64,000 nt of DNA from Muribaculaceae bacterium (GTDB taxonomy: Bacteria; Bacteroidota; Bacteroidia; Bacteroidales; Muribaculaceae), in the NCBI GenBank assembly GCA_029061225.1, contig JAIDSM010000123.1, forward strand, positions 44,147 through 108,146, given 5' to 3'. Position numbers and translations under genes: made by a program. The stretch's first letter is position 1. Every line of letters starts with the position of its first letter. The notes below the pieces were generated by a model, which saw only the letters and a list, made by a program, of their open reading frames with translations, was not told where the DNA came from and did no database searches. This document shows positions 3,903-21,363 of this stretch, one piece after another.

Positions 3903-4883
3903 ATGAAGATAATACTTCTTTCAGGAGGCTCGGGCAAGAGACTTTTGCCCCTCTACAACGATGTTAGATCGAAACATTTCCTGCAGGTGCTTGATACACC
4001 CGACGGGAGGAAGGAGTCTATGATCCAGCGCGTAGTGCGCCAGATTGAGGCAACCGGAAACGCCGACGGCATCGTCGTGGCTACCGGTGAGGCCCAAGCC
4101 AGCTATGTCAAAGACCAGCTCGGACGCAGCATAGGGATTGTGACCGAACCATGCCGCCGCGACACATTCCCCGCGATAGCCCTCTCCTGCTCCTATCTCG
4201 CATCCGAAGGCACCGACTATGATGAACCTGTAATCGTCATGCCCTGCGACACCTATGCAGACGACTCCTATTTCGAGACTGTCTGCCACATGGCTGAGGC
4301 AGTCAAAAGGGGCGACGCAGAACTGATACTGATGGGTATCACGCCTACTTATCCCTCCGAGAAATTCGGATACATCGTACCTGTGAAAGGAGCGAAGGAT
4401 GACGGCAAGGCAATGCCGGTAGAACGATTTACCGAAAAGCCCAACGTAGCTACAGCGGAAAAGCTTCTTGAGGAGGGTGCCTTATGGAACGGCGGCGTAT
4501 TCGCGTTCCGCCTCGGATACCTGATGAAGATAGTGGAGAAATACATGCCGGGCAAAGACTTCAAACAGATTCATGCAGACTACGAGCAATTCCCGAAGAT
4601 CAGTTTCGACTACGAGGTAGTGGAGAAAGCGAAGTCCGTAGGAGTACTACCCTATGCCGGCGAATGGCGCGACTTGGGAACATGGAACACACTGACCGAG
4701 AAGCTTCCGTCAGAGACAGAAGGAGCGGCACGGCTTCATGACTGCGAGAACACACATGTGGTCAATGAGCTCGGGATACCGGTGCTGGGACTTGGACTGA
4801 AGGATATAGTGGTAGTAGTGTCGCCGGAGGGAATCCTCGTGTCTAAGAAATCGGATTCGGAGAAGCTTAAGAGCTTACTTTAA
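3903..4883 (+). CDS. Mannose-1-phosphate guanylyltransferase-type nucleotidyltransferase
   Basis: A 326-residue sugar nucleotidyltransferase, predicted to make GDP-mannose from GTP and mannose 1-phosphate for glycan synthesis. Visible motifs: the N-terminal nucleotide loop LLSGGSGKRLLPL, EPCRRDTFPAIA, the metal-binding region VMPCDTYAD, FTEKPN and WNGGVFAF. It has no C-terminal cupin isomerase domain, so it is the short single-function form. ATG at 3903 is preferred over an in-frame TTG four codons upstream. The stop codon runs into an AT-rich repeat. The sugar specificity is inferred; another hexose-1-phosphate remains possible. Confidence 0.82.
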   Translation: MKIILLSGGSGKRLLPLYNDVRSKHFLQVLDTPDGRKESMIQRVVRQIEATGNADGIVVATGEAQASYVKDQLGRSIGIVTEPCRRDTFPAIALSCSYLASEGTDYDEPVIVMPCDTYADDSYFETVCHMAEAVKRGDAELILMGITPTYPSEKFGYIVPVKGAKDDGKAMPVERFTEKPNVATAEKLLEEGALWNGGVFAFRLGYLMKIVEKYMPGKDFKQIHADYEQFPKISFDYEVVEKAKSVGVLPYAGEWRDLGTWNTLTEKLPSETEGAARLHDCENTHVVNELGIPVLGLGLKDIVVVVSPEGILVSKKSDSEKLKSLL

Positions 4884-4914
4884 TTCATAATGCATAATTC
4901 ATAATGCATAATTA
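4881..4914. repeat. AT-rich intergenic repeat
   Basis: Alternating AATTCATAATGCATAAT units begin in the stop codon of the guanylyltransferase gene. Same family as at 1397, 10006, 10788, 18262 and 19145. Confidence 0.75.
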
Positions 4915-11100: not shown

Positions 11101-11976
11101 ATGTGGATAATATTTGCATTAGTATCGGCGGTGGGTCTTGGATTCTACGACGTGATGAAGAAGATCTCGTTGAAAGACAACAACGTGCCGCTCGTGCTAT
11201 GGTTTAATACCCTTTTCGGAACCTTGCTTATGAGTCCTGTGCTTGTGGAATGCTTCGCGCATGGCGGCACAGGGCCCGGCGAGGGACTGACAGGACATCT
11301 TCTTATAGCGACCAAGTCTGTGATAGTGTTATCGTCATGGATATTAGGATACTTCGCCATCAAGCATCTGCCGCTTACCATTCAGGGACCAATCAACGCA
11401 TCGCGACCTGTTATGGTGCTTGTCGGCGCATTACTGATATTCGGGGAGCAACTGAACTTCATCCAGTGGTGCGGTATCCTGTTGGGTTTCGCGTCGCTTT
11501 TCATGATAGGACGGGTAGGATCGAAGGAAGGTTTTTCGTTTAAGCACAGCAAGTGGCTGTGGATGTCGGTGGGTGCGACAGCCTTGGGAGCAGTCAGCGC
11601 GCTCTACGACAAGTATCTGATGACGCGGTTTGAGCCGTTGATGGTGCAGAGCTGGTATTCGCTCTATCAGTTGGCTATGATGAGCGTGGCGGTGCTTATA
11701 CTGCGACGGCTGCATAAACAGAGCTCCACTCCCTTCCATTGGAAATGGGCTATCGTAGGAATATCGGTGTTCCTGACAGGAGCGGACTTAGCTTACTTCT
11801 ACTCGCTGTCTGAGGCCGGATCAATGATCTCGATCGTGTCGATGATACGCCGAGGAAGCGTGCTGATACCGTTCTTCTACGGAGTACTGGTACTGCACGA
11901 GAAGAACATCAAGACGAAGCTTGTCGACCTCGGAATCCTGCTTGTCAGCTTAGCGCTCCTTGTAATCGGATCTTAA
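11101..11976 (+). CDS. EamA/DMT-superfamily membrane transporter
   Basis: A 291-residue integral membrane protein with about ten hydrophobic helices in two five-helix halves, typical of the drug/metabolite transporter (EamA) superfamily. The first half begins IIFALVSAVGLGFYDVMKK, the second near WLWMSVGATALGAVSALYDK; the glycine- and proline-containing ends of helices fit the family. Substrate cannot be told from sequence. It converges with the PnuC gene, the stop codons overlapping by 4 bp. Confidence 0.8.
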   Translation: MWIIFALVSAVGLGFYDVMKKISLKDNNVPLVLWFNTLFGTLLMSPVLVECFAHGGTGPGEGLTGHLLIATKSVIVLSSWILGYFAIKHLPLTIQGPINASRPVMVLVGALLIFGEQLNFIQWCGILLGFASLFMIGRVGSKEGFSFKHSKWLWMSVGATALGAVSALYDKYLMTRFEPLMVQSWYSLYQLAMMSVAVLILRRLHKQSSTPFHWKWAIVGISVFLTGADLAYFYSLSEAGSMISIVSMIRRGSVLIPFFYGVLVLHEKNIKTKLVDLGILLVSLALLVIGS

Positions 11977-12584
11977 TGCATGAGGCGGTGCCATTTGCGG
12001 TAGCCGAAGAAGGCTATGACTGTATATAGGGCGTAGAGGATGCCGTAGAGGGGAATGCCTTTATACCAATACAGGCAGGCACATACGGCATCGACCAGTA
12101 TCCAAGCTATCCACTGCTGGAGGTATTTGCGGGCCAGCATCCACATGCCTACTATGCTCAAGGCCGTTGTGAAGGCATCGGGGATTGGGACGGTACTGTC
12201 GGTGAGATAGTTCAGGATCAAGTACAGGCCTATCCACAGGATGAGGAAGACTCCGATGCACGCAGCCAGCATTTTTCCCGATATATTCGTGATGGGAAGT
12301 TGCTTCACTCTGTCGGAGTTGTCTGAGTGATCTGAGATCTCTGAACCAGCAGATTTATTGCGGTGGCCACGGGTCCAGACTATGTAGCCGTAGACTGCAA
12401 TCACCAGATAGTAGATGTTGATGGCGAAGTCGGCGTATATTCCTTTGCTAAAGTAGATCCACATAGATATGGCGGGCATAACCATGGAGGCGTACCATAG
12501 TCGCCAGTCGGCGTGATATTCCCACCAGAGGTAGAGGAGGCCTACCGTGAAGCCGAGGATTTCGAGGATTTTTGCAACATCCAT
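11973..12584 (-). CDS. pnuT: PnuC-family transporter, probably thiamine (PnuT)
   Basis: A 203-residue PnuC-family membrane protein with about seven helices. Motifs include LYLWWEYHADWRLWYASM near the N terminus and WILVDAVCACLYWYKGIPLY near the C terminus. PnuC proteins import vitamins by facilitated diffusion coupled to phosphorylation. Because it lies 73 bp after a TonB-dependent receptor gene headed by a TPP riboswitch, thiamine is the likely substrate (the PnuT subgroup) rather than nicotinamide riboside. The thiamine pyrophosphokinase gene often found in this locus is absent here. Confidence 0.82.
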   Translation of the reverse strand: MDVAKILEILGFTVGLLYLWWEYHADWRLWYASMVMPAISMWIYFSKGIYADFAINIYYLVIAVYGYIVWTRGHRNKSAGSEISDHSDNSDRVKQLPITNISGKMLAACIGVFLILWIGLYLILNYLTDSTVPIPDAFTTALSIVGMWMLARKYLQQWIAWILVDAVCACLYWYKGIPLYGILYALYTVIAFFGYRKWHRLMH

Positions 12585-12657
12585 AATTATTTATGATTCA
12601 TTGAAGTTACCTTTAGACTACACAAGGCGATTAGGAAACCGCCTACCCATAAGAGAG

Positions 12658-14907
12658 TTAGAAGGAGAGAGTTACGGTGGCGAGTACGTTGGTGGTGGCC
12701 TGGGCGGCAAAACCAGCGTAGCGGTAGATCACGGGTTTGCCATCTTCAAGATAATAGCCGGCTCCTGCATAGCCGTTGTTGCAGTATTTCTCGTTGAAAA
12801 GGTTGTATACTGTCACTCCTACACGTAGATCCTTCATGCCTGATATCTTCTTGAACGTATAGGCCAGCGCAAGATCGGAAACAAAATAGGAGTCGAGCTT
12901 TGCCTCAGACGAACGGGCATTGTTCATGTATTGGCTGGATACGTAACGGCTCATAAGCGAGGCTTCGAAACCCTTGACGTTGAAGTTGAAGGAATTGTGG
13001 AGGATGAAGTCAGGAGAGAAAGCTATCGGAGTATCGCCGCAGTCGATTGCAATTGGATTGGTCCACTCATCTTCATAAATGTATTCTGTGAAGTTCTTGA
13101 TGCGGTTGCGGGAGACAGTAGCGTTGATCTGCCAGTCAAACCAGCTGACAGGGCGCAGCGCACCCTGCAGCTCGATACCCATGCGATAAGATTTCGGGAC
13201 ATTTACGCTTATGGCGTTGCCGGTATCCGAAAGTTCGCCGGTCACGACAAGCTGATCCTTATAATCCATATAATAGAGTCCGGCACCGACATTGAAGAGA
13301 GATGTGCCGTAGGAATAACCAGCCTCATAGTCGAACATACGCTCCGCCACCGGATAATGCGCCGGGTCACTGTCGGTGAAGTTGTCTCGGGTCGGTTCCT
13401 TATGAGCCACACTCCACGATGCGTATGCGCGATGACCTCCGTCATTGTAAGATACACCGAGTTTCGGATTGAAGAAATCCCACTTACGCTTAAGGTCTAA
13501 GATTCCCATACCATCAATGTTCCAGTCATAGTTGTCGCTCACGCCTCGTATGGAGTAGTCGATGTGGCGGTATTGAAGGTCGGCATATGCCGAGAAGCCG
13601 GATCCGAAGGAGTAGTCGCCGCGTATGAACACGTTGGAGTCAAACTTACGGCCCGTATTGCTATAGTATTCCTGCAATGGGTCGATTGCACCCATGAAAT
13701 TACGAACCCACTTCACCTTTCCGAAATGGTTGCCGCGGTGCCAGTTTACTGCGCCACCTCCTACGAGAATCAACGCGTCCTTCTGATAACGGACATTAAC
13801 CATACCTCCACCGAAATCGTTGTCATTAAATTTCAGACGAATCAGGTCAGACTTTTTCACGAGGTTTCCGTCTGCATCAAGGAAAGGCTCAAGACCGTAT
13901 TCGGCGAGGGTACGCTTTGTCTTGTATTGGTCGTAATAGCCGTCACCTTTCGTATAATGGAGTGTGGCATTCAGTGTCACATATTCACCGATATACTGAT
14001 TGAGAAGCAGTTGGAAATGATGCTGAGTGAAGTTGTCGCACTGGTCAGGATAGTAGGCTACAGAGCCGTCGGAAGCCGTATATTCGCCACAGGGATTGTA
14101 TCGGCGTCCGTATTTCTCCATCTGTTCCTTAGAGGCATAGTCCCATGCCATGTAGGTACGTTCCTTACCGCCGAAAGCGAGCAGTCGCAGGGTAGTGTTA
14201 TCCGAACGGTAGGCAAGTTGCCCCATATAGCTCCAAAGCTGTGAGAAAGCACGGTCTATGTATCCATCAGAACCGATGTGGCTGAAACGAGCATCGACGC
14301 TCCAATGGTCGCCGAAAAGGCCGGAAGACACCTTGACAGTCTCCCGGTTGGAGTTGAAAGAGCCATATGAGGCCGAGACCATTGCTGAACGCTCGGAAGA
14401 AGGATAATCGGTCAGCATATTGATGGATGCTCCGAAAGCACCCGCTCCGTTAGTGGAAGTACCGGCACCACGCTGGATCTGGATATCGTTGAGGGAGGAA
14501 GCGAGGTCGGGCAAGTTGACCCAATAGACATTATGGCTCTCGCTGTCATTGATGGGAACGCCGTTGGCCGTAATATTGATGCGGGAGCCATCGGTTCCGC
14601 GCACACGGAGACTGCTGTAGCCTATTCCTGCACCGGCATCGCCTGTGGAGATGATGGAGGGAGTCATTTCAAGAAGGGAGGGAATGTCACGCCCGTCGTT
14701 GCCTTTAGCTATTTCCTTGGCGTTAACGTTTGTGTAAGCCACAGGAGTCTTCACTCCGGCACGGTTTGCCGTGACTTCTACTGCGTCAAGGGCGGTGTAC
14801 ACACTGTCGAGGCTCTCTACGAGCGACGAGGCTCCGGCATTATCAGCCGAAGCATGGAGTGTCGAGGCGCACATAAGGGCCACACCCCATGAAAAGGTCT
14901 TTTTCAT
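12658..14907 (-). CDS. TonB-dependent receptor, probable thiamine receptor
   Basis: A 749-residue outer membrane receptor: signal peptide (MKKTFSWGVALMCASTLHASA), plug domain (about 45-160, with SLRVRGTDGSRINITANGVPIN and NDIQIQRGAGTSTNG), and a beta-barrel ending in an aromatic C terminus (VLATVTLSF). No N-terminal CarboxypepD-like or signalling domain. A TPP riboswitch in its leader and a downstream PnuC gene assign it to thiamine uptake, as in the Bacteroides thiamine locus; this is by context, since barrel specificity cannot be read. Confidence 0.88.
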   Translation of the reverse strand: MKKTFSWGVALMCASTLHASADNAGASSLVESLDSVYTALDAVEVTANRAGVKTPVAYTNVNAKEIAKGNDGRDIPSLLEMTPSIISTGDAGAGIGYSSLRVRGTDGSRINITANGVPINDSESHNVYWVNLPDLASSLNDIQIQRGAGTSTNGAGAFGASINMLTDYPSSERSAMVSASYGSFNSNRETVKVSSGLFGDHWSVDARFSHIGSDGYIDRAFSQLWSYMGQLAYRSDNTTLRLLAFGGKERTYMAWDYASKEQMEKYGRRYNPCGEYTASDGSVAYYPDQCDNFTQHHFQLLLNQYIGEYVTLNATLHYTKGDGYYDQYKTKRTLAEYGLEPFLDADGNLVKKSDLIRLKFNDNDFGGGMVNVRYQKDALILVGGGAVNWHRGNHFGKVKWVRNFMGAIDPLQEYYSNTGRKFDSNVFIRGDYSFGSGFSAYADLQYRHIDYSIRGVSDNYDWNIDGMGILDLKRKWDFFNPKLGVSYNDGGHRAYASWSVAHKEPTRDNFTDSDPAHYPVAERMFDYEAGYSYGTSLFNVGAGLYYMDYKDQLVVTGELSDTGNAISVNVPKSYRMGIELQGALRPVSWFDWQINATVSRNRIKNFTEYIYEDEWTNPIAIDCGDTPIAFSPDFILHNSFNFNVKGFEASLMSRYVSSQYMNNARSSEAKLDSYFVSDLALAYTFKKISGMKDLRVGVTVYNLFNEKYCNNGYAGAGYYLEDGKPVIYRYAGFAAQATTNVLATVTLSF

Positions 14908-14920
14908 GTCTTCAAATTTT

Positions 14921-14990
14921 TCTTACGCCGGAATTACCCGGGTCAAGTTCAGAGGGTTTGTTCTCAGCCTTTCGGCACCCCTAAATTGAA
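14921..14990 (-). ncRNA. TPP riboswitch (THI box)
   Basis: The minus strand carries the THI-box hallmarks in order: GGGGTGCC, GGCTGAGAA, ACCCTCTGAAC, TTGACCCGGGTAATTCCGGC. It ends about 14 nt before the receptor ATG, so TPP binding probably masks translation initiation of the thiamine receptor gene; no separate terminator is visible. Confidence 0.95.
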
Positions 14991-15030
14991 TATATTTTGC
15001 ATCGAGCGTCCTAAAACGCGATTACGGGTG

Positions 15031-18100: not shown

Positions 18101-18320
18101 GATGTGTCAGGCTCCAGCCGGGATTGCCGGGAGGATGCCCTACTTCAAGTCGCAGCGCGGTGAGTAGATATTCAGGACAGTCCCAGTAAGAGGCCCCCGG
18201 ATCGACCGTAAGCCAATAGACCAAAAGAGAACCCAGAAAGGCAAGCCAGGGCACCACCTTGAATGCATAATGCATAATGCATAACGCATAATTAGCCGGA
18301 TTATCCTTATTCGCAGCCAT
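15141..18320 (-). CDS. DUF2723 (TMEM260-like) multi-pass membrane protein
   Basis: A 1059-residue protein with about a dozen N-terminal membrane helices and a large soluble C-terminal part. The DUF2723 core is clear: VDPGASYWDCPEYLLTALRL followed by EVGHPPGNPGW. Human TMEM260 of this family is a protein O-mannosyltransferase, so a GT-C glycosyltransferase role is inferred. ATG at 18320 is preferred over a TTG two codons upstream. Unusually, residues 11-20 (NYALCIMHYA) are the in-frame translation of an AT-rich intergenic repeat, so the repeat lies inside the gene's 5' end, or the true start is further in. Confidence 0.82.
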   Translation of the reverse strand: MAANKDNPANYALCIMHYAFKVVPWLAFLGSLLVYWLTVDPGASYWDCPEYLLTALRLEVGHPPGNPGWSLTHRFVSCFFNDPAIQVQVVNMMAGLFTSLAVMILCSISLSVMRWIWSPGRQRGWRCASISVASLAGSLCFAWSDSAWYSAVEAEVYAMSLFLSALTVWMSLRWAFQFGRGARARWLVALMYVIGLSLGVHQLNLLVLPAIAMVMALSIRERKKSGFFRVVFAFLIGCSVVALILKGLMPGSLALAGWADLIAVNSFGLPYWSGAIMFWGVSLAIVVAASFVAGKRHRNLSTAFWCTAAVMLGFSVYILIPLRAWANPPVNEGNPSDVFRMADYLDRRQYGKSPLFYGQTPYSRVMRQEHVSVGEDGDTVYDYSWNALDVKGRDMRPMVRGGHIPARSIFLTEDDRKLNERISSKDSAIGYVVAGIRSEARMTPELNMWLPRIYASSPGDLAAYRDWTGMDSASMVRVRVSEAFDSLGHPVPMRDADGKPIVKYGLRPTYLHSLAYMAVYQIGYMYFRYLMWNYSGRQNDVPSTGEIDHGNFITGVPTFDDLMLGSQSSLPPELGKENDGRNVYWCIPFLLGMVGIVWLFRGSRKGLLSLRMRRTAWVSLVLFFMTGIAIVFYLNQSPGEPRERDYSFMGSFWTFALWIAFGMLLLLHSVRRRWARGVAVALVCAVPFWMLAQNWRDHDRSCRSATLDYASNLLESLDEDAILFVEGDNYIFPLWFAQEVMGLRRDVTVICNPYLGCDWYVCQLMTPRYGYDGLKMTGTEGDIALGNFNMVRFPASETDTVEAIEALRALYADRSATPSFRSRWLRMGKDSTDSWVFDILSIPGKPAGSLAGLREVAAIDIVATNAVSRYPRPVYWHQDLSNAKSIGFYPHTRQALFTRRLMPQLLDSAVLLDEALGALPKLKWGGLDMAPYPGPDVSSQAARQRASLIRLAESLGADGRHDQALHVAKSAWVRYPSGLIPFSIRYHADSAYFEARQIAMVLRRSGQAVGDSMALSLADEIEKEDSLRTVAFRRYRQALPAWRRSALSPDSRNHTIMTP

Positions 18321-18360
18321 TGACAACTCTCAATTCTAAATTCACAATTCTCAATTATTT
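18262..18360. repeat. AT-rich repeats at and inside the DUF2723 gene start
   Basis: Bases 18262-18294 are tandem GCATAAT units within the open frame of the DUF2723 gene. Bases 18323-18360 are a CAATTCTCAATT block almost identical to that at 7508-7546, abutting the stop codon of the dehydrogenase gene. Confidence 0.75.
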
Positions 18361-19158
18361 CACTATGCCCTTGTCGAGAAGGCGGCGTTTCACCTGCATG
18401 CGGAGCCAAGTGGGGGTTATCCCGATGAAGAAAATCGCAAGGCGGTTGATGAAGCCGTTGATGTACTGTTTCTTTCCCTTGAGCATAGCTTTTACCGCCT
18501 TCTCTGCGAATCGGTCGGGCTTCTCAACGGCTCCGACCGCTACAGCGAGACGCATTAGATTGTCGGGCAGACCAAACAGGGAAGTAGCTATACCGCCGGG
18601 GGCAGCCACAGTAGCCGATGCTCCGTAATCCTTAAGCTCATAATGGAGAGAGCGGGTGAAGACGCGTATGTATGCTTTTGTGGACGCATACATAGCAAGT
18701 CCGGGCATCGGCATCCAGCATGACATCGACGACATGTTAAGGATCCGGCCACTACCGCGAGCCTTAAACCTGCGGGCGAAGAAGAGCGACAGCATCGTGG
18801 TGGCACGCACATGAAGGTCGATGAAACAGTTTATTTTAGCTTCCGGGGTCTCTGCAAGTTCACGGAAACTGAAAATACCGGCATTGTTGATCACGAAATC
18901 CGGCTCAATCCCTCTGGTGGAAAGGAATGCCCCAAGCATCGACACGGATGAGGAATCAGTGAGATCAAGCGTGAAGGGAATGGCCTTGACCCCATATTCC
19001 TTCTCTATGGAGGCAGCGGCCTGGCGCAACGGATCTACAGTCACGCTCACCATCAACAACGAACAGCACCGCCTTGCAAGGGCTCGACAGAACTCAATGC
19101 CGATACCTCCGTCAGCACCCGTGACGACAGCCCACTTTCCTTCTAATTCATAATTCAT
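18355..19158 (-). CDS. Short-chain dehydrogenase, candidate hydroxysteroid dehydrogenase
   Basis: A 267-residue classical SDR: cofactor loop TGADGGIG (14-21), NNAGIF, catalytic Ser in LNMSSMS, and YASTK. It resembles the 17-beta-HSD12/3-ketoacyl reductase branch of the family. Third gene of an operon with a 5-alpha-reductase and a flavin oxidoreductase, 104 bp after the latter, so a 3-hydroxysteroid/3-ketosteroid interconversion on bile acids or sterols is inferred. Stereochemistry (3-alpha or 3-beta) cannot be read. The ATG at 19158 lies in an AT-rich repeat and gives MNYEL; no later start keeps the cofactor strand. Confidence 0.85.
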   Translation of the reverse strand: MNYELEGKWAVVTGADGGIGIEFCRALARRCCSLLMVSVTVDPLRQAAASIEKEYGVKAIPFTLDLTDSSSVSMLGAFLSTRGIEPDFVINNAGIFSFRELAETPEAKINCFIDLHVRATTMLSLFFARRFKARGSGRILNMSSMSCWMPMPGLAMYASTKAYIRVFTRSLHYELKDYGASATVAAPGGIATSLFGLPDNLMRLAVAVGAVEKPDRFAEKAVKAMLKGKKQYINGFINRLAIFFIGITPTWLRMQVKRRLLDKGIVK

Positions 19159-19183
19159 AATTCATAATGCATAATGCATAATT
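19145..19183. repeat. AT-rich repeat carrying the SDR start codon
   Basis: TAATTCATAATTCATAATTC followed by ATAATGCATAATGCATAAT. It supplies the first five codons of the dehydrogenase. Confidence 0.75.
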
Positions 19184-19262
19184 GGCAAGTCATAATCAGC
19201 TATTGCTAAACCTTAGCTTTAAAGCATTATGAAAAATCATGCATTAGATTAACTCCAATTGA

Positions 19263-20492
19263 TCAATTTCTACTTTTAATATTCTCTATCTCTTTGCGTA
19301 TCTTAGGAGGGAGATCGGAAAGCGTGCAGTGACAGGCCATCTCGCGGCTATACATCCGTGCGATGCAATAGTTGACATGCTCGCATCCGCAATGATGCGA
19401 CACCTCGCGTGCAAGCCGATTGATAAAATCCGGCTCGCGAAGCAACGCACGCCCCATCTGCACGAACTCAAAACCTTCTGAAAGAGCCTTATCCATACTC
19501 TCGCCATCCACTACTCCTCCGACATAGATGAGCGGAAGCTTAAGTTCCGCACGGAAACGCTTTGCATCCTCCAGAAAGTAAAGGGGCTTGAACGGCTCTT
19601 TAGGAATCATGTATTTCCCGACCATGCGCACTCCGTATTTAAGCCACCACTGCTTCATATAGTAGGTCATGCTGTAGATAGGCATCTCTCCGCGCATCAC
19701 ATACATCGGGGCCTTGCTTACGAAACCGCCGCTGAGCACTATGGCGTGCGCACCGAGGCGTTCTATCTCCTTAGCTACGGTAAGGCAGTCGTCGATCTCG
19801 AGGCCACCCTTGAAACCATCGCGCATATTGGTCTTTACGATGACACCCATATCGCTTCCGGCTGCCTTCATCACCTCTTCAAGACACATACGCATGAAAC
19901 GCATACGGGAATCCAGGCCGCCTCCGAACTCATCCCGACGTCGGTTGGTATAGGGTGAAAGGAACTGGGAGATAAGGTAGCCGTGTCCGGCATGCACCTC
20001 CACGCAGTCGAATCCTGCGTCGCGTGCCGTGCGCACGGCGTCTCCGAAGTCTTTTGCCATCTGCAGAAGCTCATCCTTACGCAGACCGCGCACGATAGTA
20101 GGGGAATAAAGGTTGAAACCTGTCGAAGCGCCTACAGGAATACCGCCTGCGGTCTTGATATGGGTCATGTTGCCGCAATGGCCTATCTGGATCGAGGCCT
20201 TTGCACCGCGCTCGTGGATACCGTCGGTAATTTCGCGCAGGGATCCCACTATTTCAGGACGCAGCCACAGCTGAGTCTCAAACGAGAGAGCCGACCTGTT
20301 GATGCCCGCATAGGCGAGAGTAGTCATGCCGACTCCCCCTTCAGCGACGCTCCAGTGATAGTCGCGGAGCATTTCCGTAGGATTATTGTCTTTTCCCATT
20401 CCCTCGAAGGCCGCGCTCCGGATGGAACGGTTGCGCAGTTCCACAGGTCCTATCTTTCCGGGAGTAAAGAGTCTGTCGAGCGAGTTCACCAT
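19263..20492 (-). CDS. NADH:flavin oxidoreductase (Old Yellow Enzyme family), candidate steroid 5-beta-reductase
   Basis: A 409-residue FMN barrel of the BaiCD/dienoyl-CoA reductase branch: LFTPGKIGPVELRNRSIRSA at the N terminus, IQIGHCGN, and CVEVHAGHGYLISQFLSP followed by TNRRRDEFGG. The C-terminal Cys-rich stretch CEHVNYCIARMYSREMACHC resembles the iron-sulfur site of longer homologues, with one position changed to Val. It lacks the C-terminal FAD/NAD domain of full dienoyl-CoA reductases. Its start overlaps the end of the 5-alpha-reductase gene by 7 bp. Gut enzymes of this type reduce the Delta4 bond of 3-oxo bile acids to the 5-beta form, which is the inferred role. Confidence 0.85.
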   Translation of the reverse strand: MVNSLDRLFTPGKIGPVELRNRSIRSAAFEGMGKDNNPTEMLRDYHWSVAEGGVGMTTLAYAGINRSALSFETQLWLRPEIVGSLREITDGIHERGAKASIQIGHCGNMTHIKTAGGIPVGASTGFNLYSPTIVRGLRKDELLQMAKDFGDAVRTARDAGFDCVEVHAGHGYLISQFLSPYTNRRRDEFGGGLDSRMRFMRMCLEEVMKAAGSDMGVIVKTNMRDGFKGGLEIDDCLTVAKEIERLGAHAIVLSGGFVSKAPMYVMRGEMPIYSMTYYMKQWWLKYGVRMVGKYMIPKEPFKPLYFLEDAKRFRAELKLPLIYVGGVVDGESMDKALSEGFEFVQMGRALLREPDFINRLAREVSHHCGCEHVNYCIARMYSREMACHCTLSDLPPKIRKEIENIKSRN

Positions 20493-21265
20493 ATGAAAGG
20501 GATTATGTATTTTCTATTCAGTTTCCTGTATTCATCACCGAACTCCTCCATATAACGGCCATGGAGCGAACGAGCACGGGGAGCGAGGTTGGCGAATGTC
20601 CAGAGTGCGAAAATCACCCCCGGGAGCGACCATGTCAGGACAGCATACCCTACCCATTCGGTAAACTCGCCGAAATAGTTGGCAGACGTCACATAGCGGA
20701 ACATACCTCCTTTCGGGATGTAGTGGCGACGGTCGCCGGGCTTACGCAGATGGCGTATTATATGGTCGGAATGAAGATTGACCAGCATGCCGACAAAGAA
20801 GATGACCGTACCGAGCAGAAACTTTACGCTATAGAGCCATGAGGCAGGATAAGAATCGGCCGGCGACACATAGAAGAGCCAGCCTCCGATGAGATAAGCG
20901 TTGACTATGTTGAAGACACACCCCATAAGGATTATGACGAGGGGCATGCGGCTATTTCCCTTGATAAGAAGAGGGAATACAAAGGAACGCTGGAAATAAT
21001 GGAGCATGAAAATGGAAGCCATGGCAATAAGAGCCGCCTCTCCACGGCGTTCTGACAAAGCCCAGAGCAAGGCCATGCAGATGAAGACAGGAGCCTCCAT
21101 CAAGACCCATCCGAGGCGGTTGCCAACCGAGGGTCCCCATTTAGGAGTATAGAAGATGCCGTAGCCCGGCGTTATGAATCTAAGTCCCGCAAAGACCATG
21201 ACGGCGAGCGCTATCATGACATATTCTACCGTGCGGAACACTATAGGGTCGAAAATCGCGTTCAT
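20486..21265 (-). CDS. Steroid 5-alpha-reductase (SRD5A) family membrane enzyme
   Basis: A 259-residue protein with about seven membrane helices, matching eukaryotic SRD5A over most of its length. The C-terminal third is diagnostic: SANYFGEFTEWVGYAVLTWS, then RYMEEFGDEYRKLNRKYIIPF, which parallels the NYFGE..EW.GYA and C-terminal IIPF of human SRD5A1. NADPH-dependent reduction of a Delta4-3-ketosteroid to the 5-alpha product is predicted at the inner membrane. First gene of the operon with the flavin enzyme and the SDR. ATG at 21265; a TTG one codon upstream is less likely. Confidence 0.9.
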   Translation of the reverse strand: MNAIFDPIVFRTVEYVMIALAVMVFAGLRFITPGYGIFYTPKWGPSVGNRLGWVLMEAPVFICMALLWALSERRGEAALIAMASIFMLHYFQRSFVFPLLIKGNSRMPLVIILMGCVFNIVNAYLIGGWLFYVSPADSYPASWLYSVKFLLGTVIFFVGMLVNLHSDHIIRHLRKPGDRRHYIPKGGMFRYVTSANYFGEFTEWVGYAVLTWSLPGVIFALWTFANLAPRARSLHGRYMEEFGDEYRKLNRKYIIPFIW

Positions 21266-21331
21266 CAATATATAGACTTATAGTGGGGCGTATTCTCTGC
21301 CGAGAAGAACGCTTCAGTCAATAATCAGGTG

Positions 21332-21363
21332 CAAATTTACTAAATTAAAGCGACATTTGCAAA
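21332..21363 (-). promoter_or_regulatory. Promoter of the steroid reductase operon
   Basis: Minus strand TTTG (21363-21360), 20 bp, TAAATTTG (21339-21332). Transcription should start near 21325, about 60 nt before the 5-alpha-reductase ATG. Confidence 0.7.

Follow-up and report, generated by a model that had tools for sequence, protein, structure and literature searches.

Published work on gut Bacteroidota describes three enzymes acting in series on bile acids: a 5-beta-reductase (5BR) makes a 3-oxo-Delta4 intermediate from 5beta bile acids, a 5-alpha-reductase (5AR) converts this to the 5alpha form, and a 3beta-hydroxysteroid dehydrogenase (3beta-HSDH) yields the isoallo product (PMC10382948, PMC9645264). 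In Parabacteroides merdae, the 5AR is clustered with a 3beta-HSDH and an NADH:flavin oxidoreductase, and its disruption abolishes the allo derivatives of lithocholic acid (LCA); P. merdae, O. laneus and B. dorei all convert 3-oxo-Delta4-LCA to isoallolithocholic acid (isoalloLCA) (PMC10382948). In Bacteroidetes of the chicken gut the 5AR has been reported as widespread, except in P. distasonis and two Odoribacter isolates (PMC6069880). BaiP and BaiJ, the 5-alpha-reductases of Firmicutes, share the proposed reaction but are flavoproteins, distinct from the membrane 5ARs of Bacteroidetes (PMC9645264). Here we describe a cluster with the same three enzyme classes in a 64,000-nucleotide stretch of a Muribaculaceae assembly (GCA_029061225.1, contig JAIDSM010000123.1, our contig C28; hereafter the window). 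It is the Bacteroidota 5AR/5BR/3beta-HSDH cluster, already published in other families, and its 5AR and 5BR are 54-66% identical to their named orthologues in the phylum. It differs in belonging to Muribaculaceae and in its three-gene form, which lacks the second short-chain dehydrogenase/reductase (SDR2) found at 35 other loci. The features of the locus are as follows.

20486-21265, minus strand: 5AR, an SRD5A-type steroid 5-alpha-reductase, seven-helix membrane protein of 259 amino acids (aa) (PF02544, phmmer, predicted fold)
19263-20492, minus strand: 5BR, an NAD(P)H:flavin oxidoreductase of the Old Yellow Enzyme (OYE) family, 409 aa, putative 3-oxo-steroid 5-beta-reductase/dehydrogenase (PF00724, OYE barrel)
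18355-19158, minus strand: SDR1, a short-chain dehydrogenase/reductase (SDR) of 267 aa, putative 3beta-hydroxysteroid dehydrogenase (PF00106, SDR motifs)
21332-21363, minus strand: Bacteroidota-type promoter of the operon, TTTG-N20-TAAATTTG, ~65 bp upstream of the 5AR ATG
20486-20492, minus strand: exactly 7 bp shared by the end of 5AR (stop) and the start of 5BR
19144-19183, unstranded: heptamer repeat (TAATTCA/TAATGCA) between 5BR and SDR1, a dispersed repeat of the genome

A sequence-only reading of the window had proposed a single operon of an SRD5A homologue, a flavin enzyme and an SDR behind a consensus promoter, and had likened it to the 5AR/5BR/3-HSDH set of gut Bacteroidota. This description held. 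All three open reading frames are intact on one strand, the Pfam assignments agree with the named families, the gene order is kept in relatives, and the 7-bp overlap between 5AR and the flavoprotein is as described. The promoter pattern occurred seven times in the window against 0.66 expected from shuffling. The likeness to the known set was confirmed by the P. merdae cluster and by relatives in the same clade. The 5AR starts at an ATG at 21265, with an in-frame TTG one codon upstream. The gap between 5BR and SDR1 is 104 bp and holds the heptamer repeat, within which the SDR1 start codon (19156-19158) falls.

The 5AR matched Pfam Steroid_dh (PF02544) with E=6e-46 and 156.6 bits (cut-off 22.6), and phmmer matched it to 7c83, the structure of PbSRD5A, at 1.8e-53; the two proteins are 40% identical over aligned positions. 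PbSRD5A is a proven 5-alpha-reductase that acts on steroid hormones, progesterone above all (PMC7815742). The predicted model of the window's 5AR (predicted local distance difference test, pLDDT, 92) superposed on PbSRD5A with template-modelling (TM) scores of 0.91/0.94 and on human SRD5A2 (7bw1) with 0.83/0.87; structure comparison of the model gave no other convincing match. It shares with both enzymes the seven-helix fold and the catalytic Glu and Tyr. By sequence and fold, the best matches were thus steroid 5-alpha-reductases and not TECR-type proteins. The 5AR of Phocaeicola massiliensis is 54% identical to that of the window. The two alignments for structure prediction were made without rows from plasmid records, the records from which the P. 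massiliensis and P. distasonis loci come.

The flavoprotein matched Oxidored_FMN (PF00724, E=2.8e-51), and its model (pLDDT 90) is an OYE barrel in which the HxxHxY residues H167, H170 and Y172 are invariant. It is 66% identical to the P. massiliensis 5BR and 64% identical to the P. distasonis NADH:flavin oxidoreductase WP_005861966.1, which itself adjoins an SDR. These matches indicate that the window's 5AR and 5BR are orthologous to the named Phocaeicola and Parabacteroides genes. We rejected an assignment to BaiCD, the bile acid Fe-S flavoenzyme of Firmicutes (NF041087). The two share the OYE-type domain that binds flavin mononucleotide (FMN), matched over residues 6-264, but the score was 169.7 bits against a cut-off of 825 and the match covered only profile positions 2-261 of 642. 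With 409 residues against 642, the window's 5BR lacks the C-terminal FAD/NAD half, so that the earlier label "BaiCD-like" was too loose. At its C terminus, 5BR has a conserved Cys-rich stretch (residues 368-389) with C370, C376 and C387 invariant; these lie about where FadH-type enzymes bind 4Fe-4S, with a different spacing.

SDR1 matched adh_short (PF00106, E=3.6e-36) and carries the classical SDR motifs TGADGGIG (T13-G20), NNAG (N91-G94) and YASTK (Y157-K161). It is 36% identical to the SDR adjoining 5BR in P. distasonis. In many Bacteroidales clusters (L140, L141, L143, L144, L157 and ~30 more loci), SDR1 is followed by another SDR of a distinct kind, SDR2; this four-gene form is common in other families. 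SDR2 may supply the opposite C3 stereochemistry. We found no SDR2 at E<=1e-10 in the window's genome, which is 86% complete.

The three genes were found together far more widely than in the window. In the same genus, 5AR was present in 31 of 36 other genomes. The flavoprotein lay directly downstream in 29 of the 30 genomes with an extracted 5AR locus, the window's own included, and in the sole exception 5AR stood at a contig end. The three-gene set is nearly universal in this genus. Across all fetched loci, the gene orders were 5AR-5BR-SDR1 (48), 5AR-5BR-SDR1-SDR2 (35) and 5AR-5BR-SDR2 (4); some of the loci counted overlap, having been extracted from the same genome, and many 5AR-5BR entries are short loci that end before the SDR. 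The P. distasonis locus has 5BR-SDR1 without 5AR, in agreement with its published status as an exception (PMC6069880). Among 247 evenly drawn Bacteroidales genomes, 31 had the operon-type 5AR and 30 of these also had 5BR, while 5BR occurred in only 4 of the 216 genomes without operon-type 5AR, all four carrying a lone-type 5AR elsewhere. The association of 5AR, 5BR and SDR1 is not chance, as the gene order is conserved both in the genus of the window and far outside it, and these pairing counts show that 5AR and 5BR are coupled much more tightly to each other than to the SDRs. The near-universal retention within the genus suggests an abundant substrate. This bears on the view that steroid hormones from host or diet (progesterone, androgens, corticoids) are the main substrates, a view that the hormone activity of PbSRD5A, chiefly on progesterone, would favour. 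The gut lumen contains little hormone compared with bile acids, and together with the retention this leaves the hormone view, in our estimate, a very slight probability.

We consider it likely that the cluster encodes a steroid A/B-ring epimerase. Hindgut bile acids are its most likely substrate, and it would probably act on neutral 3-oxo-Delta4 steroids as well. In the mechanism that we propose, the FMN enzyme 5BR would work on the beta face of 3-oxo steroids, moving hydrogen at C4-C5, and, with 3-oxo-5beta substrates such as 3-oxo-LCA, would run toward the 3-oxo-Delta4 intermediate. The membrane 5AR, to judge by its fold, its catalytic Glu-Tyr pair and published work on its relatives, would then transfer a hydride to C5 on the alpha face and so produce a 3-oxo-5alpha (allo) steroid, which is flat. 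Finally, SDR1 would reduce the 3-ketone, probably to the 3beta-hydroxyl (iso). Overall, bent 5beta steroids would become flat isoallo steroids, an A/B-ring flip that disposes of reducing equivalents. An epimerase that oxidises and then reduces predicts just the near-obligate pairing of 5AR with 5BR that we observed. What the DNA shows is the genes, their conservation as a unit, their orthology to named Phocaeicola and Parabacteroides genes, and the folds and active-site residues of the products; each chemical step in the window's organism is inferred. The sequence-only reading had predicted both 5-alpha and 5-beta products. The operon does not imply both, because the published 5BR runs toward 3-oxo-Delta4 and the net product is 5-alpha.

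Several points weigh against the epimerase assignment or its bile acid substrate, and the first lie in the 5AR active site, for which functional positions were taken from the PbSRD5A paper (PMC7815742). The catalytic residues are E57 and Y90 in the window's 5AR (E54 and Y87 in PbSRD5A) and do not vary across 120 sequences. In the Q-E-Y motif, Met takes the place of Gln in the window's 5AR and in all 120 bacterial relatives, and human SRD5A2 is inactive as Q56A or Q56L. Of the 13 residues that hydrogen-bond NADPH in PbSRD5A, 10 are kept; three are altered (R34 to Ile, Y177 to His, H230 to Leu). Beyond the 5AR, SDR1 has His116 at the usual catalytic Asn position (alignment read by eye), and its 3beta stereospecificity is putative, the SDR family being too broad for this to be read off sequence. 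Moreover, the tie to the proven P. merdae activity runs via the named relatives; the relatives' loci from the contig scan were the 80 nearest, and no Parabacteroides was among the matches listed.

We kept the window's 5AR in the SRD5A family because its fold and profile match; Q-E-Y characterises the enzymes in PMC7815742 and does not define the family. Met stands at the Gln position also in a Nocardia homologue and in P. massiliensis. The latter is a relative of B. dorei, which is now classed in Phocaeicola and converts 3-oxo-Delta4-LCA to isoalloLCA, so Met-Glu-Tyr is probably a working variant of the 5AR active site. The residue changes followed the operon. The 99 5ARs with an adjacent 5BR have His at position 177 and a residue other than His at 230, and at 34 most of them are hydrophobic; lone 5ARs kept R34 and Y177 in 7 of 7 cases and H230 in 6 of 7. 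A conserved Tyr directly follows position 177 and may take over the role of Y177. In the 5AR tree, the operon 5ARs formed one branch (support 100/96) that included the P. massiliensis 5AR and a few lone members, which mostly share the residue pattern; the remaining lone 5ARs grouped with PbSRD5A, although long branches make that side unsure. Residues 196-208 of the window's 5AR read NYFGEFTEWVGYA.

These differences from PbSRD5A at Gln53, Arg34, Tyr177 and His230, and the presence in the SRD5A family of the polyprenol-acting SRD5A3 (PMC7591894), would suit enzymes whose target for reduction is a non-steroid enone or a polyprenol-type lipid of endogenous or dietary origin, in which case the steroid assignment would mislead. 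We judge this very unlikely, since the best sequence and fold matches are to steroid 5-alpha-reductases and the P. merdae mutant links the clustered 5AR to allo bile acids. Our hypothesis for the operon 5AR pattern is a changed cofactor site. It is conceivable, if unlikely, that the operon 5ARs are a distinct SRD5A subclass in which Met-Glu-Tyr, the loss of the Y177 and H230 contacts (mostly of R34 too) and the tie to 5BR reflect changed cofactor use (for example NADH, or NADH reused from an oxidative 5BR) in a redox-balanced steroid epimerase, with plant sterols and not bile acids as the forestomach substrate.

The remaining points against the favoured assignment concern the bile acid substrate. 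Nine loci came from rumen-genome series or from assemblies with rumen, reticulum, omasum or abomasum in their titles, and eight of the nine carry 5AR, 5BR and SDR1, the ninth ending at a contig end. The forestomach is not expected to contain bile acids. With complete clusters in rumen, reticulum and omasum assemblies, the substrate is not necessarily a bile acid; the clusters suggest further substrates besides bile acids and make neutral sterols equally worth considering there. The earlier naming of isoalloLCA as a product was an inference and is unsupported as written. The same chemistry might then have as its main natural substrates neutral sterols (3-oxo-Delta4 forms derived from cholesterol or plant sterols), with 5alpha- and 5beta-stanols rather than allo bile acids as products. 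Besides the forestomach loci, this agrees with the activity of SRD5A enzymes on neutral 3-oxo-Delta4 steroids and with Bacteroides sp. D8, which reduces cholesterol via 3-oxo-Delta4 and 5beta-3-oxo intermediates. However, the published assays of the clustered genes used bile acids, the operon holds nothing to make 3-oxo-Delta4 sterols, and the sample name of an assembly is no proof of the habitat of the cells. Operon genomes were also enriched in bile-salt-hydrolase-family genes, found in 18 of 31 against 20 of 216 others (Fisher 2e-9); the window's genome has one elsewhere (G000:C64:4934-5800). That link is confounded by gut habitat and phylogeny, and the family profile, PF02275, spans penicillin acylases besides bile salt hydrolases. 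On balance, we regard neutral sterols as rather unlikely to be the main substrates and retain the bile acid epimerase as the preferred assignment.

Around the operon, the heptamer tandem repeat (CATAATG/CATAATT) is intergenic at 18262-18296, 19144-19183, 4881-4913 and 1400-1456. Genome-wide, a 26-base probe (2 mismatches allowed) gave 77 matches and a reversed control gave 0; one array lies ~330 bp upstream of the bile-salt-hydrolase-family gene (region G000:C64:4583-5800). A thiamine pyrophosphate (TPP) riboswitch at 14903-14992 heads a TonB-dependent receptor and a PnuC-type transporter (11973-14992, minus strand), which make up an operon for thiamine uptake close to the steroid genes. We rejected this receptor as a steroid importer, since its place behind the riboswitch with the PnuC-type transporter points to thiamine. 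Relatives of both proteins lie near 5AR at the distant locus L125 as well. At the P. distasonis locus (L163), 5BR-SDR1 stands directly behind a resistance-nodulation-division (RND) efflux pump made up of TolC, adaptor and permease; steroid products might leave the cell through this pump. At the P. massiliensis locus (L162), three long open reading frames directly upstream of 5AR-5BR-SDR2 resemble aconitase, isocitrate dehydrogenase and citrate synthase (a by-eye sequence call).

Beyond the published cluster, features that may be of interest are the Met-Glu-Tyr variant, the operon-linked altered NADPH site, the four-gene form and the forestomach members. If it proves active, the operon would place much of a large genus of Muribaculaceae among the makers of flat bile acids, which would bear on animal models of flat-bile-acid biology. 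Given the copies in forestomach assemblies and the altered cofactor site, the natural substrate and cofactor become a question that can be tested directly.

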